Positions 21,756 to 51,661 of a stretch of 64,000 nt of DNA are shown in pieces. The notes beneath the pieces are model-generated. The model did not search any database. It had not been told where the DNA came from and was given only the letters and a program-made list of their open reading frames with translations. A program made the translations under genes and the position numbers. The first letter of the stretch is position 1. Each line of letters begins with the position of its first letter. Origin of the DNA: Candidatus Mycalebacterium zealandia (GTDB lineage: Bacteria; Desulfobacterota_D; UBA1144; Nemesobacterales; Mycalebacteriaceae); NCBI GenBank assembly GCA_014075295.1, contig CP046180.1, forward strand, positions 186,001-250,000. Reading direction: 5' to 3'.

Positions 21756-24347
21756 ATGAGCGAATCAAGCACACCGATGCTTGAACAGTATAAAAGCATC
21801 AAAAGCCGCTACCACGATTCCATACTTTTTTTTCGGCTCGGTGATTTTTACGAGATGTTTTTTGAAGACGCGCTTGCCGCTTCGGAAATTCTCGGCATAA
21901 CCCTCACGGCGCGCAACAAAAAATCCGCCTCGCCTGTTCCATTTTGCGGCGTTCCGTTTCACAGCGCGGAGAGGTATGTGTCAAAACTGCTTGAATTTGG
22001 GCTCAAGGTCGCCATATGCGAGCAGGTTGAAGAAGGCCAATCCGGCAAACTTGTGGAAAGGCGGGTCGTCAAAGTTCTCACTCCGGGCACCGTTCTGGGC
22101 GATGAAAGCCTTGATTCAAAAACAAACAACTACATAGCGTCAGTCAGTTCGGACTCTTCGGGCTATCATCTTGCGCACTGCGACATTTCAACCGGGGATT
22201 TCGCCGTCTGTTCGCTCAAAACAGAAGTCGCGGCACGCTCCGAACTTCTCAAACTTATGCCGTCCGAAGTTGTCATCGCGGTGGAGAACGGCCTGTGCGC
22301 CGCGGAGTCGGCCGTTTCATGGAATCCGCTTTTCACCATCAGACAAGATCTGTTTGTTTCAAGCGAGCCGGGCTCGGCTGTTATGAAACACTTCGGGATT
22401 TCGTCTCTCGCGGCGTGCGGATTTGACGAAACTTCAGGCGCGGCTCTTGCCTGCTCCGCGTTGCTTGAATACATGCGCGAAACCCAGATGGACTATATGC
22501 CTTCCATAAAACTGCCGGTTTTATACGGTGCGTCCTCCTGCGTTCAGATTGACGAATCCACAAGAAAAAACCTTGAACTCGTGAAGTCCATGACTTCCGA
22601 AGACGGACCCACGCTCATCAAAACAATTGACCTTACGCTGACCCCGATGGGCGGGCGGCTTTTGAGAAAATGGATGGACTACCCGCTCACGCAAATCGAC
22701 GAGATTGAAAGCCGCCTTGATGCGGTTGAAAACCTTTGCGCCGATTCCGACCTGACGGATTCAATCCGAACCGAACTCAAAGGTGTGAACGACATTGAGC
22801 GACTGATTGGTAGAATCTCCACGCCGTCTTCAAAGCCGAGAGACATGACTGCGCTAAAGGATTCGCTTTTGCGGACATCGGAGTTGAAGAAAATTGCGCC
22901 GCGCGCGGCCGCGCCTCTTCTTCGTGGCGCCGGGGAAAAGATAGACGGTTTTGACTCTGTAACCGGGCGCATAGCCGCGACAATTTACGATGAGCCGCCC
23001 GCCACTCTTGCCGAAGGTGGGGTCATAAAGGAGGGATGCGACCCCGACCTTGACGAATTCAGACGTCTGCGGCAGGAAGGCAGAAACTGGATATCGGGCT
23101 TTGAGCAACAACAGAGGGAAAAAACCGGAATTTCCTCTTTGAAGGTCGGATACAACAGAGTGTTCGGCTACTACGTTGAGGTTACAAAAACAAACATTGA
23201 CAAGGTTCCGCCCCAATACGTCAGAAAACAAACTCTTTCCTCAAGCGAAAGATTCACAACTCCCGAACTTTCCGAATGGGAGGAAAAAATCAAAATTGCT
23301 GAAGACGAGATGTTGCGACTTGAAAGAGAGATATTTGAAGGTTTGAGACGCGAGGTTTCATCTGTCGCGGACAAAATCAGAGAGTGCGCGAGGCTGATTG
23401 CCGTTTTTGATGTACTGTCGTGTTTTTGCGCCGTCGCCGTGCGCAACGGATACACAAGGCCCGTCATAAACGGAGGAGGAGAAATAGACATTACGGACGG
23501 ACGGCATCCGGTTGTGGAGCAGATACGGGGTGCGGGCGCGTTTGTCGCGAACAATGTCAAAATGGATGACGGGGAAAACAGATTTCTGCTTATTACCGGA
23601 CCCAACATGGCGGGAAAATCCACCCTCATAAGACAGGTCGCGCTCACGGTTTTGATGGCTCAGATGGGAAGTTTTGTTCCGTGTTCAAAAGCGGTTGTGG
23701 GGATTACGGACAAGATTTTCACACGCGTGGGTGCGTCCGACAATCTTGCGAAAGGGCTTTCAACCTTTATGTCCGAAATGGTTGAAACCGCCTACATAAT
23801 ACGAAACTGCACCCCGCGCAGTCTTGTGATTCTGGATGAAATCGGACGTGGTACGGGCACCTTTGACGGAATGAGCATCGCGTGGGCGGTCGCCGAGCAT
23901 TTGCATCAAGTCGGCGCGAGGTCTCTTTTCGCTACTCACTATCACGAACTTGCGAATCTCTCCGCGTCAAATCCGGGAGTCAAAAACTACAATGTCGCGG
24001 TCAAGAAAAGCGGAGAAGAGATTGTTTTTCTCAAAAAACTTGTTCCCGGCTCATCAAGTCACAGTTACGGAATTCAGGTTGCCGCGCTCGCGGGCGTTCC
24101 GGAATCGGTTCTTGTGTCCGCGCGCAAAATACTTTCCTCTCTTGAAAGCATGCGCGCAAAAATGACCGAACTTATGGGCGCGGAGCAGATGACGCTTTTT
24201 CCCGATGCTGAACCCGAACAACCCGCCGAGAACAGCTCGTTTGGCAAACTCGCCGAAGACCTTTCCCGCATAGACACAATGAACCTCACGCCCGCCGAAG
24301 CGATAAAAACCATTGAGGAATTAAAAAAGAAACTTGAAACTGATTGA
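21756..24347 (+). CDS. mutS: DNA mismatch repair ATPase MutS
   Basis: Recognises base mismatches and small loops and recruits MutL. The 863-residue protein has the usual domains: mismatch-binding domain with the GDFYEMFFEDA stretch holding the Phe-x-Glu wedge (residues ~25-40), connector, lever and clamp. The C-terminal ATPase has Walker A NMAGKSTLIRQ near residue 617, a VILDEIGRGTGTFDG Walker B/signature near 690, and the helix-turn-helix dimer motif. It has an excellent promoter but no leader. The 3' end overlaps yraN by 14 bases. Confidence 0.97.
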   Translation: MSESSTPMLEQYKSIKSRYHDSILFFRLGDFYEMFFEDALAASEILGITLTARNKKSASPVPFCGVPFHSAERYVSKLLEFGLKVAICEQVEEGQSGKLVERRVVKVLTPGTVLGDESLDSKTNNYIASVSSDSSGYHLAHCDISTGDFAVCSLKTEVAARSELLKLMPSEVVIAVENGLCAAESAVSWNPLFTIRQDLFVSSEPGSAVMKHFGISSLAACGFDETSGAALACSALLEYMRETQMDYMPSIKLPVLYGASSCVQIDESTRKNLELVKSMTSEDGPTLIKTIDLTLTPMGGRLLRKWMDYPLTQIDEIESRLDAVENLCADSDLTDSIRTELKGVNDIERLIGRISTPSSKPRDMTALKDSLLRTSELKKIAPRAAAPLLRGAGEKIDGFDSVTGRIAATIYDEPPATLAEGGVIKEGCDPDLDEFRRLRQEGRNWISGFEQQQREKTGISSLKVGYNRVFGYYVEVTKTNIDKVPPQYVRKQTLSSSERFTTPELSEWEEKIKIAEDEMLRLEREIFEGLRREVSSVADKIRECARLIAVFDVLSCFCAVAVRNGYTRPVINGGGEIDITDGRHPVVEQIRGAGAFVANNVKMDDGENRFLLITGPNMAGKSTLIRQVALTVLMAQMGSFVPCSKAVVGITDKIFTRVGASDNLAKGLSTFMSEMVETAYIIRNCTPRSLVILDEIGRGTGTFDGMSIAWAVAEHLHQVGARSLFATHYHELANLSASNPGVKNYNVAVKKSGEEIVFLKKLVPGSSSHSYGIQVAALAGVPESVLVSARKILSSLESMRAKMTELMGAEQMTLFPDAEPEQPAENSSFGKLAEDLSRIDTMNLTPAEAIKTIEELKKKLETD

Positions 24348-24744
24348 CGAAATCGCGAGCGTGGCGGCGCGGCTTGTGAAAAAACCCGAACCCGCGAAGA
24401 CCGAGAGCGGCGAGCAGATTGCCGCGGATTTTCTCAAGGAAAAAGGTTTTTTAATTCTTGAAAGAAACTTCCGGTGCAGAGAGGGGGAAATAGACATTGT
24501 TTGCTCTGACGGCGGCACGCTGTGCTTTGTTGAAGTCAAGTCGCGCTCAAACTTCGCGCACGGATTTCCCGAAGAGTTTGTTGACCGGCGAAAGAGAAAA
24601 AAAATTACGATTGCCGCGTCCAGATATATCAAAAAACATCGCGTTGAATCTAAACCGATGCGCTTTGACGTTGTCGCGGTGGATCTTTCGAAAGGCGATG
24701 TGAGGCTTCTGGAAGGGGCTTTTGAGGCGGATTTTAGTATCTGA
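24334..24744 (+). CDS. yraN: YraN family (UPF0102) nuclease-fold protein
   Basis: The 136-residue protein keeps the restriction-endonuclease-like core of this family: AADFLKEKGFLILERNFR, then GEIDIVCSDGGTLCFVEVKSRSN, where the Asp and the Glu-x-Lys are the putative metal-binding residues. The function is not established, though some relatives are linked to recombination or DNA uptake. The start is taken as TTG at 24334, inside the mutS 3' end. GTG at 24361 is another possibility. Coupling to mutS suggests a shared DNA-maintenance transcript. Confidence 0.85.
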   Translation: MKLIDEIASVAARLVKKPEPAKTESGEQIAADFLKEKGFLILERNFRCREGEIDIVCSDGGTLCFVEVKSRSNFAHGFPEEFVDRRKRKKITIAASRYIKKHRVESKPMRFDVVAVDLSKGDVRLLEGAFEADFSI

Positions 24745-24753
24745 AAAAAGTAC

Positions 24754-24782
24754 TTGACGTTTAACCGGAAAGTCTTTACTAT
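24754..24782 (+). promoter_or_regulatory. Strong promoter of the candidate small RNA
   Basis: TTGACG (24754-24759), exactly 17 bases, TACTAT (24777-24782). It begins 10 bases after the yraN stop, and no protein-coding start with a ribosome site follows. Expected transcription start is about 24789. Confidence 0.7.
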
Positions 24783-24788
24783 ATGGAT

Positions 24789-24870
24789 GTAAGTTAGGGA
24801 ATTTCCTTAACTTCCTCCTCCTCCTGATTTATGAAAAGCCGTGCGATACCCGCGTGGCTTTTCTTTGTTT
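24789..24870 (+). ncRNA. Candidate small RNA with a CU-rich anti-Shine-Dalgarno stretch
   Basis: About 80 bases lie between a good promoter and an intrinsic terminator. The predicted 5' end begins at a near-perfect 10-bp hairpin (24791-24800 with 24804-24813, one G-U pair). A single-stranded stretch CTTCCTCCTCCTCCTGATTT (24811-24830) follows, then the terminator hairpin. The short ATG-containing readings inside stop at once. The hairpin / C-rich seed / terminator layout is typical of trans-acting regulatory RNAs. I do not recognise the family. It lies between yraN and the convergent VKOR gene. Confidence 0.62.
24833..24870 (+). terminator. Intrinsic terminator of the candidate small RNA
   Basis: GAAAAGCC (24833-24840) pairs with GGCTTTTC (24856-24863). 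Five more inner pairs (GTGCG with CGCGT) give a 13-bp stem around ATACC. A T-rich tail follows. In the other orientation it could also stop transcription from the VKOR gene. Confidence 0.75.
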
Positions 24871-24881
24871 CTTCCGCCGTC

Positions 24882-25697
24882 TTATTGCCGCCCGCTCTTG
24901 TACCCTGAAATCTTGGAAAGTTGTTCAAGTGTTTTTGCGCCCTTGTGAAAGGAGCCCTTTATTTCCCATGTTGGAAAAGCCCCTATGTTCTTTTCCCTGC
25001 ACAGGTCCGGCTTGGCGTTTTTCCCTTCGGGGTGGCACTCAACATAGTTCAGTTTTTTCGCGTCCGCGCCGAAAATTTTTTTCTGCATAATGCACGCCGG
25101 GCATTTGAACGAGCCATACATAACCGCGCCGGTCTTTTTCAAGTGCTGCGCCAGTCCTTTGCTCATCATAACGTTTTGGACGTTTTGCGAAACGCGCGGC
25201 GAATCCTCACTCATCTCCGCCGACACATATCCCGCCACCGCCGCGACAACGGCGATAACAACGCCCGCGCCGATTTTAGCCCCGTCCGCCCCGCGCACGG
25301 ATAGTATCCATATCACAAGAATTATTACGGCGGACGTCACGCAGAACGGGCAGATTTGCCGTATCACAAAAAACTCCGCCCATGACAGATAAGCCGACAC
25401 TCCGACCCCCGTGCTTGCCAGCCCGATTATAAGCGCGCGGTTTTTCCTCAAACCCCCGAACGCGCCCGCGACTGACAAAAACGCATATCCGATTGCTCCG
25501 GCGAGCGAGGCCGGATAACCGAACATTTTTGAAAACTTGCTGTTGAGAACCTCGTTGCACTGCCACCCGCCCGAGCAGTAAGCACCCGCGCCGTCCGTTG
25601 TGTAGTATATCGCGGTAAGGTAAAGACAGATTGCGAGACCTGTGACTGAGAGGGCTGTTATCGCGACAGATGAACCGTTTTTTTTGGTCTCACTCAT
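24882..25697 (-). CDS. Vitamin K epoxide reductase (VKOR) fused to a thioredoxin-like DsbA domain
   Basis: The 271-residue protein combines a four- or five-helix VKOR membrane domain (residues ~10-160) with a periplasmic thioredoxin-like domain (~185-270). The VKOR part has loop cysteines in YCSGGWQCNEV near residue 45 and the catalytic CPFC near 118. The thioredoxin-like part has KCPACIMQKK near residue 200. Such fusions make disulfides in exported proteins and pass electrons to quinone, replacing DsbB/DsbA. I start at ATG 25697; upstream in-frame codons are non-ATG. A client could be the secreted four-cysteine protein at 62 kb, by inference only. Confidence 0.88.
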   Translation of the reverse strand: MSETKKNGSSVAITALSVTGLAICLYLTAIYYTTDGAGAYCSGGWQCNEVLNSKFSKMFGYPASLAGAIGYAFLSVAGAFGGLRKNRALIIGLASTGVGVSAYLSWAEFFVIRQICPFCVTSAVIILVIWILSVRGADGAKIGAGVVIAVVAAVAGYVSAEMSEDSPRVSQNVQNVMMSKGLAQHLKKTGAVMYGSFKCPACIMQKKIFGADAKKLNYVECHPEGKNAKPDLCREKNIGAFPTWEIKGSFHKGAKTLEQLSKISGYKSGRQ

Positions 25698-25804
25698 GGG
25701 CGGGATTGATTTTAACAGCAAATCAGGGATTTTTGAGTTTCAGTGCAAACTCTTGTTGCAAAAAAGATGAAATACAAAGGTGCTGTTAAGCTTTGAGAAC
25801 AAGC

Positions 25805-49670: not shown

Positions 49671-50657
49671 TTAGCCCTGGCTGTACTGCGGGAGCAGGAA
49701 GCGGTGACGCATTGTGTACTCAAACGGTTTAGCGTAGGCAATAGCCCTGCTGTCCGTGGCACCCAAGTCGTCCGCTGACCTCTCAACCGTTCTGGTCCAA
49801 ATCGTTTTGGCCGGTGGGATTATCAGGTTGAAAGTAAAACTTATCAATCCAACAACCTCTTTTGCCGGTATCTGGCCGCCCATAAAGTCAAAAGGCGTGC
49901 CCGACATGTACCAAGCGCGGATGTCATCTCCCGTGGCTGTCCTTACACTGTCCGGGTCCAGCTGGAAACGGTGTCCCGTTCCAAAAGCCGGGGGCAGCTC
50001 CGACGGCAGGTATGTAACCTCATGGATACTGTTGGTTACATCCGGGCGGGTCGTGATGCGGTAATTCATCCTTCCCCAGTCTGTCTGTCCGTAAAATGTT
50101 GGTTTTACTGACAGCTCTTTGTCGGAGTAGCGTCCGTTGGCAGTGTGAAGAATGTAGCCACGACGCTCCATAAGCATGTTGAAGTAGTTGTTATTCGTGC
50201 CATGCTCATAAGCGGCGATGTACGCGGCCTTTTTCGGAAATCCGAAAGGCTCTTTGCCCGCCCAAATCGGAGAGTCGTTTGACAGATACATGTAGGGATA
50301 GTATCCCGCCATGTATTTATTTCCGTCTTCACCGTCAGCGGTGGCGGAAAATGTCACACCCATCTCCATGTAGGGTCCGAGCATTGTGTTCTTGTGAATC
50401 ACATACCAGAACTCAATAACGTCGTCCTGAAGCTGAATCGGCTCAGGCAGAATGTGTTTCATGTCGTTTTCATCTGCTCTGATAACAAAAGCCATCCAGC
50501 GGCTCTCCGTGTAGGTGAGCGGGACGATGTCGTAGTCAAAAACAGGGTCGGCGACACCTTGAGAAATGATGTCTATCCTGTCTCTGTCCATTGGCAGCGG
50601 GGGGACTTCCCCTTCCGCGAGCCAAGGGTAACTGTACTCATTTGCTTGCATTCCCAT
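49671..50657 (-). CDS. Acetoacetate decarboxylase family protein (second of tandem pair)
   Basis: The 328-residue protein keeps the Schiff-base Lys pair of the family in FGFPKKAAY near residue 145 and the preceding GYYPYMYLSNDSPIWAG strand. Classical enzymes decarboxylate acetoacetate to acetone, but the superfamily also includes aldol-condensing and hydrolytic members. At about 325 residues this is longer than the ~245-residue clostridial enzyme, with extra N-terminal sequence. AAGGAGG lies 11 bases before the ATG. It is 26 bases downstream of its paralogue and ends in a strong terminator. Confidence 0.83.
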   Translation of the reverse strand: MGMQANEYSYPWLAEGEVPPLPMDRDRIDIISQGVADPVFDYDIVPLTYTESRWMAFVIRADENDMKHILPEPIQLQDDVIEFWYVIHKNTMLGPYMEMGVTFSATADGEDGNKYMAGYYPYMYLSNDSPIWAGKEPFGFPKKAAYIAAYEHGTNNNYFNMLMERRGYILHTANGRYSDKELSVKPTFYGQTDWGRMNYRITTRPDVTNSIHEVTYLPSELPPAFGTGHRFQLDPDSVRTATGDDIRAWYMSGTPFDFMGGQIPAKEVVGLISFTFNLIIPPAKTIWTRTVERSADDLGATDSRAIAYAKPFEYTMRHRFLLPQYSQG

Positions 50658-50683
50658 AGTTCAATTAACCTCCTTGAAAGTTA

Positions 50684-51661
50684 TTAGGAACCCTGACTAA
50701 TGGGGAACTGCTGTCTGAGACCGTATTTGTAAGGTGTTGCAAATCCGGCGTAGTCAGCGGGTCTCTCATAAGTCTCATTCCAGAGAACCTGAGCGGGAGG
50801 AATAACAAGATCAAACACGAACGAGATAAGTCCCGTTACTTTGTCAATCTTGAGCTCCGTTCCCATGTTGTCGAACGGAGTTCCCTGCATAAACCAGTTG
50901 ACGGCGTCTCCTGACGCTGTTCTGGTGTGCTCGGGTTTAATCTGGAAACGATGTCCTTTGATCATTGAGTCAAAGGGAGGCGGGAGTTCTGACGGCAAGT
51001 AGGTAAGCTGCCATTCGGAGCTTGAAACATCAGGTCTTGTAATAACCTTCATGTTGAATTTGCCCCAGTCCGTTTTTCCGTAGAAATACGGAGGCTTAAC
51101 CTCTTTGTCGTCGAACTGACCTGTTGCGCTGTGCATCAGGTAACCGTTACGCGACATCGCGAATCCGAAGAAGTCGGTTCCTTTTTCGCCGCCGTGTACC
51201 GAACAACGGATGTAGGACATCTTTTTAGGAAATCCAAGAACACGACCCGCGTCAACGGGGGCGTCTCCTGTAAGGTACATGTACGGGTAATAACCGGCTT
51301 TCCAGACATTACCTTGCGGGTCCTTGTAGGACGCCGACATGGTAACACCAAACTCCAGATACGGACCAAGCATCGTGTTGACATGGTCAACGTACCAGAA
51401 TTCGACAAGGTCGGCGTCGTCTCCGTCCCACGGCTCAAGCGGTGGGTTCGGAATCAAACGGCGTCTTGTCTCTTCTGAACAGCTGACTATGAAAGCAGAC
51501 CAGCGACTGTCCGTGTAAGTAAGAGGAAGAACGTCTATGTCCCATAGCGGATCTGAAGGATTCGCTATGATCCAAGATTTGATATCCCTCTCAATCGGAG
51601 GAGGCGGAACCTCCTTCGTAAGTTCCCAATATTTACTTGGGACATTGAGATGACTAGGCAT
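50684..51661 (-). CDS. Acetoacetate decarboxylase family protein (first of tandem pair)
   Basis: The 325-residue paralogue of the next gene shares the DxxPLTYT(E/D)SRW(M/S)AF block near residue 45, NTMLGPY(M/L)E(M/F)GVT near 90, GYYPYMYL near 120 and the active-site LGFPKKMSY near 143. The two proteins are clearly related along their whole length but far from identical, suggesting an old duplication and perhaps a hetero-oligomer. AAAGGAGG lies 7 bases before the ATG. Transcription likely starts at about 51779, after a long structured leader. Confidence 0.83.
   Translation of the reverse strand: MPSHLNVPSKYWELTKEVPPPPIERDIKSWIIANPSDPLWDIDVLPLTYTDSRWSAFIVSCSEETRRRLIPNPPLEPWDGDDADLVEFWYVDHVNTMLGPYLEFGVTMSASYKDPQGNVWKAGYYPYMYLTGDAPVDAGRVLGFPKKMSYIRCSVHGGEKGTDFFGFAMSRNGYLMHSATGQFDDKEVKPPYFYGKTDWGKFNMKVITRPDVSSSEWQLTYLPSELPPPFDSMIKGHRFQIKPEHTRTASGDAVNWFMQGTPFDNMGTELKIDKVTGLISFVFDLVIPPAQVLWNETYERPADYAGFATPYKYGLRQQFPISQGS

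Follow-up and report, generated by a model that had tools for sequence, protein, structure and literature searches.

Predicted small RNAs with an exposed anti-Shine-Dalgarno seed form an undescribed family in an order of Dadabacteria

The interval 24754-24870 of the window (the whole 64,000 nt stretch of DNA analysed here) is, judging from its sequence, probably an independently transcribed small-RNA gene, and we are highly confident that it represents a real and hitherto undescribed RNA family.

Anatomy of the locus in the window

The predicted gene lies on the forward strand, downstream of yraN (UPF0102; 24334..24744, +) and convergent with a VKOR gene (24882..25721, -). A sigma-70-type promoter, TTGACG-17-TACTAT, spans 24754-24782 (+), with the -35 element TTGACG at 24754..24759, of which TTGAC is retained in nearly all family copies, and the -10 element TACTAT at 24777..24782 after a spacer of 17 bp. 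The spacer holds a degenerate first promoter box of the TTAAG type (24761..24772, +), which reads TTTAACC in the window; among hits of at least 44 bits with model R3 (see below), this box is TTAAG in 50 of 71 and TAAAG in 15 of 71. Transcription would start 7-8 nt 3' of the -10 element, giving a predicted RNA of about 79 nt (24789..24868, +) of which both ends are inferred. Near its 5' end it has a 10 bp hairpin with an AUU loop and the arms AAGTTAGGGA/TCCTTAACTT (24791..24813, +), on which lies a second promoter box, TTAG-N9-TTAA (24794..24810, +), 40 bp 3' of the first -35 base. A CU-rich anti-Shine-Dalgarno (anti-SD) seed, UCCUCCUCCUCCUG, follows (24813..24826, +) and is unpaired in the predicted fold, and the gene ends in a rho-independent terminator (24833..24870, +) with a 13 bp stem, a 5 nt loop and TTTGTTT as the U tract. 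The promoter, hairpin, CU-rich stretch and terminator were thus all found where the first-pass annotation of this DNA had placed them.

The fold of 24780-24870 has a predicted energy of -32.4 kcal/mol (z = -6.3), which was equalled by none of 200 shuffles. Promoter matches of equal quality occur 1.1 times per 1.5 kb in shuffled sequence, so that the promoter match on its own is not significant; the case for an RNA gene rests on conservation.

Conservation in a congener

The only other genome of the genus examined (G001), whose VKOR is 61 % identical to that of the window, shows the same yraN-VKOR gene order and keeps the whole RNA unit in the gap between these genes. Its promoter is TTGACC-17-TACTAT, its 5' hairpin AGTTAGG-N7-CTTAACT has a 7 bp stem and a 7 nt loop, and its seed region is CTCCTCCTCCTG. 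The terminator, with a 13-14 bp stem and a 5 nt loop, is unlike that of the window in sequence and alike in shape: 6 of 13 pairs are altered on both sides with the pairing intact, compared to 0-2 such pairs when the pairing was slid by 1-3 columns as a control. This copy was found only by protein-anchored inspection of the yraN-VKOR gap, and the matches that a DNA similarity search with the interval returned in relatives were chance CT-rich sequence. According to the annotation, the interval is a complete but so far undescribed small-RNA gene bearing an anti-SD seed, a proposal to be abandoned if relatives that keep yraN and VKOR had lost the two stems or the seed; G001 keeps both genes and retains both stems and the seed, and the proposal survives.

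Distribution and copy number

A covariance model built from the window and G001 sequences with the promoter left out (R2) matched in genomes throughout the order (Dadabacteria). Each real match is preceded by the same kind of promoter, TTGAC-NNN-TTAAG...CTTTATATT, which is independent evidence because the model contains no promoter. A second model (R3), built from 21 sequences including that of the window, covers the promoter, hairpin region and seed and leaves out the terminator; it recovered the family in genomes that R2 had missed. In a survey of 387 genomes, R3 (E <= 0.01) found the family in all 44 genomes that belong to the order and in none of the 343 others, though the survey ran stricter filters, so that weak or diverged members outside the order could be missed. 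In the 14 class-level relatives, whose genomes are about 1 Mb in size, matches were only weak (E > 0.1). The covariance search in relatives that had been suggested as a check hence uncovered an order-wide, multi-copy family. Rfam contains no such family, and the window gave no match at the gathering threshold.

Promoter-only matches aside, there are about 84 copies in the 44 genomes, with 1-5 per genome. One copy was detected in the window genome; it scores 64 bits (E 1.4e-7 in that genome) with R3, a model that includes the window sequence, and combines the features that define the family under R3, namely the two-box promoter and the anti-SD seed with a terminator after it. R3 matches nothing else within the window. 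Terminator, seed and box were read in detail in 69 copies, 57 of which have a terminator by a strict perfect-stem rule (4.3 expected from shuffles), and in the other 12 the terminator stem has an interruption.

The seed and its pairing potential

Most copies carry two anti-SD motifs, AUCCUCC-AUCCUCCUUU, unpaired and placed before a strong terminator, and the exact sequence ATCCTCCATCCTCCTTT is found in 48 of the 69 copies. Genomes of family f6 have ATCCTTCATCCTCCTT as the seed, and in the window genus the seed has diverged to a run of CCT repeats, UCCUCCUCCUCC. In predicted folds an average of 85 % of the seed is unpaired, compared to 47 % of the whole transcript. It contains the anti-SD sequence of 16S rRNA, which is kept in the 16S tail of the window genome (GGATCACCTCCTTAC). 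An order-wide search for mRNA targets with long complementarity gave none above chance; outside the RNA loci GGAGGATGGAGG occurs near the chance level, and the RNA loci account for most of its occurrences in the order. As no class of mRNA with long complementarity was found, short pairing with SD sequences is the likely mode of action.

A promoter shared with gspC and pilM

The second promoter box, TTAA-N9-TTAA, is kept in 61 of the 69 copies, many of which lack a stable 5' hairpin, and in 55 of these 61, that of the window included, it lies at an offset of 40 bp from the first -35 base. The weakest R3 matches, which are seedless and score below about 50 bits, were set aside as promoter-only: they are the promoters of gspC (PF11356; L232, L236, L239-L247 and L249) and, in two genomes, of pilM (PF11104; L250 and L251). 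All 12 gspC promoters have the same box at offset 40. There, the box ends adjacent to the start codon, and an SD motif was found in none of the 12 gspC leaders.

At the level of the family the "5' hairpin" is, on sequence grounds, primarily a DNA box, TTAA-N9-TTAA, which is also a stable stem in the copies of the window genus, f6, f7 and some others. As the window stem sits exactly on a DNA box of protein-gene promoters, it is more than an element of the RNA; the 5' hairpin that the first-pass annotation described is present at its place, though its reading as an element of the RNA only does not hold. With the same box at the same offset as in the sRNA promoters, and with short SD-less leaders, the gspC and pilM promoters point to a putative, as yet unnamed regulon of the order.

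Genomic neighbourhoods

Copies convergent on VKOR, at distances of up to about 7 kb, recur in genomes of families f1 and f6, and also in the two f7 genomes and at least two of those from f5. Given this recurrence, the window copy is probably an ortholog of the VKOR locus, and the site beside VKOR is probably where the RNA ancestrally resided in several of the order's families. Other copies adjoin trhO (UPF0176), SCO1/SenC, ispE with a lipoprotein gene, bactofilin or M23 peptidase genes. Many lie on the same strand shortly 5' of trhO (f3) or SCO1/SenC (f3, f6 and f7) and, since several are directly 5' of these genes, some could act in cis.

Shine-Dalgarno usage and RNA chaperones

Over 464 kb from the window genome (the window and 20 sample stretches, L278-L297), an SD pentamer is present at 15 % of gene starts compared to 5 % of internal control codons, percentages that are rough because start sites were chosen mechanically. 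Genes led by an SD are, by this comparison, a minority. Those with SD sites in the window include genes for a PstS-like protein (PBP_like_2) and a porin (PF07396; at 39893), two genes of the acetoacetate-decarboxylase family and two further genes with no Pfam match; the GGAGG sites that the annotation had pointed out at pst, OMP and decarboxylase genes are thus borne out. Its suggestion that an RNA might separate genes with GGAGG sites from those without is, as far as sequence can tell, plausible. Exported proteins were not enriched among SD genes (7/56 compared to 39/311, P = 1), and hence no coherent regulon emerged. Genes with GGAGGAG at the start in the genus form a mixed list, which we take to include eno, rpsN, gcvH and ribH. 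The decarboxylase-family genes (PF06314) are an adjacent pair at 49671-51661 of the window, and their SDs are among the strongest there.

Hfq (PF17209) was found in none of the 44 genomes of the order (G000-G043), with positive controls, and CsrA (PF02599) in none of the 12 sampled. All 44 genomes therefore lack the Hfq gene that an Hfq-dependent sRNA would call for.

Proposed mechanism and alternatives

The reading that we favour, with somewhat better than even confidence, is that co-regulated, Hfq-independent sibling sRNAs repress mRNAs with GGAGG sites in trans by occluding the ribosome site. From the sequences we infer transcription from a two-box promoter which, being common to the sRNA, gspC and, in two genomes, pilM, would probably answer to one regulator. 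The anti-SD stretch would be left exposed, flanked on one side by the terminator hairpin and on the other, where a copy has one, by the 5' hairpin, and could pair, without Hfq, with the GGAGG-type sites of a minority of mRNAs and so block loading of the 30S subunit; mRNAs with short leaders and no SD, gspC among them, would escape. In a broader version, which seems rather unlikely, the RNAs would form a global switch in an SD-poor lineage, with double-anti-SD RNAs silencing the SD-led minority while the same regulator activates immune, SD-less secretion and pilus genes.

It is unlikely, though the copies on the same strand shortly 5' of trhO or SCO1/SenC invite the idea, that the unit is a cis-acting leader in which promoter, regulatory segment and terminator attenuate the next gene (trhO, SCO1/SenC or the lipoprotein gene). 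In the window genus, and at copies close to the bactofilin or M23 peptidase genes, the gene that follows is convergent, the downstream gene varies between copies while seed and promoter are constant, and the fold offers no obvious anti-terminator. Chance assembly of promoter-like and terminator-like sequence could account for the promoter match, which taken alone is at chance level, but is scarcely credible for the unit as a whole: the conservation seen in the congener, the covariation of the terminator and the distribution over 44 of 44 genomes compared to 0 of 343 already refute it, and on this conservation we rule it out.

Two further readings take up parts of the same evidence. Era prefers the 16S tail, and the exposed AUCAUCCUCC-AUCCUCCUUU might mimic the 16S rRNA 3' tail and, as a decoy, titrate a protein that reads it, such as Era, or another CU-binding protein. 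The likeness of the seed to the tail (GGAUCACCUCCUUAC in the window genome), the extreme conservation, the several copies per genome and the lack of targets with long complementarity would all suit a titrating RNA; however, the AUCA part of the tail is lost in the window genus and any anti-SD sequence resembles the tail, and we regard this reading as quite improbable. Less credible again is that only promoter, operator and terminator matter, the DNA with its two TTAA boxes being conserved and the RNA a by-product. The TTAA-N9-TTAA box at the same offset in the gspC and pilM promoters and the weak RNA hairpin of many copies fit such a view, yet it explains neither the conserved, exposed double anti-SD seed, which the gspC and pilM promoters lack, nor the terminator that directly follows the seed in the copies examined, and it is very improbable.

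Comparison with known small RNAs

The occlusion of SD sites in trans that we propose already has experimental precedents in NfeR1 and LhrC, while the family itself is new to Rfam. The RNAs probably act like Yfr1, the alpha-r14/cuckoo RNAs and LhrC, and by the tests that we ran are homologous to none of them.

In anatomy the nearest known system is Yfr1, which is likewise very short, occurs in every genome of a large clade and, though folded elsewhere, keeps a conserved CU-rich element single-stranded. Yfr1 base-pairs with mRNAs, porin mRNAs included (PMC6974561; PMC2518516), and its motif is aCUCCUcACACAC (PMC2518516). It is 54 nt long in Prochlorococcus MED4, whereas the Dadabacteria RNA is about 79 nt in the window, has 1-5 copies and shares a two-box promoter with secretion genes. 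The ultraconserved Yfr1 element ACUCCUCAC(AC) is absent from the family, which exposes AUCCUCC-AUCCUCC or, in the window genus, the CCT repeats, and Yfr1 gave no Rfam match either at the gathering threshold or among sub-threshold hits.

NfeR1 of Sinorhizobium carries three redundant anti-SD motifs and blocks the ribosome site of ntrB independently of Hfq (PMC10746234). As described in that source, the alpha-r14/cuckoo RNAs are similarly Hfq-independent, with redundant unpaired anti-SD motifs and stems free in sequence, though they have three hairpins, each with CCUCCUCCC, an arrangement not seen in the Dadabacteria family, where both motifs lie in one linker between the hairpin or box and the terminator. 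With the Rfam ar14 model (RF02344) the window scores 20.6 bits against a cut-off of 58.8, 11 other members gave no match, and no member of our family was found outside the order; the likeness to cuckoo and alpha-r14 RNAs drawn by the first-pass annotation is hence a sound analogy and not a case of membership.

LhrC of Listeria has five near-identical copies under one regulator, with redundant CU-rich sites that block the SD and no need of Hfq (PMC4132741). It differs in that it is 111-114 nt long, comes from an unrelated organism and distributes three redundant UCCC-type, CU-rich sites over loop, linker and terminator loop, whereas the CU-rich sites of the Dadabacteria RNA are in the linker alone. 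FsrA of Bacillus is also a short sRNA with C/U-rich single-stranded stretches; the window scores 27.7 bits with its model (RF02273; cut-off 80), the best sub-threshold Rfam score, and the other members searched gave no such match.

An open-literature search found no work on small RNAs in Dadabacteria, an uncultured group, for which this would be a regulatory RNA family carried by all genomes examined in the order. Sibling anti-SD RNAs, known from alphaproteobacteria and Firmicutes, would here occur in a clade without Hfq, and the link to the gspC and pilM promoters offers a testable idea, that one regulator acts oppositely on SD-led and SD-less mRNAs.

Rejected candidates and further loci

Two loci from an exact-motif search over the order (L102 and L103) have an unrelated CT-rich look and lack promoter, hairpin and terminator. 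An R2 match in G007 (L169) was discarded, as it looks like the terminal 3' part of an outer-membrane-type gene together with that gene's terminator; the true copies of this genome were recovered with R3. An antisense reading, in which AAAGGAGGATGGAGGATG resembles an SD and start, was excluded on three grounds: the ORF that would follow lacks conservation, no ATG is found at that place in the window genus, and the promoter and the terminator have the opposite orientation. Short sense ORFs (MKLK in some f3 copies) are not conserved either.

In G004, two loci (C144:7523, seen as L008 and L098, and C147:133) contain CTTAATCCTCCTCCTCCTGATTTAT, which closely resembles the window seed with its 3' flank; no matching hairpin or terminator was seen at them. 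At L184:1501-1569 (G015:C19), ACATCCTATACCATCCTCCTTGAGG is followed by a terminator, and this may be a divergent copy, or a decayed one, that lacks the usual promoter. In two genomes, G033 (L158) and G035 (L159), the RNA gene occurs as a tandem pair 5' of trhO, at distances of 352 and 273 bp, respectively.
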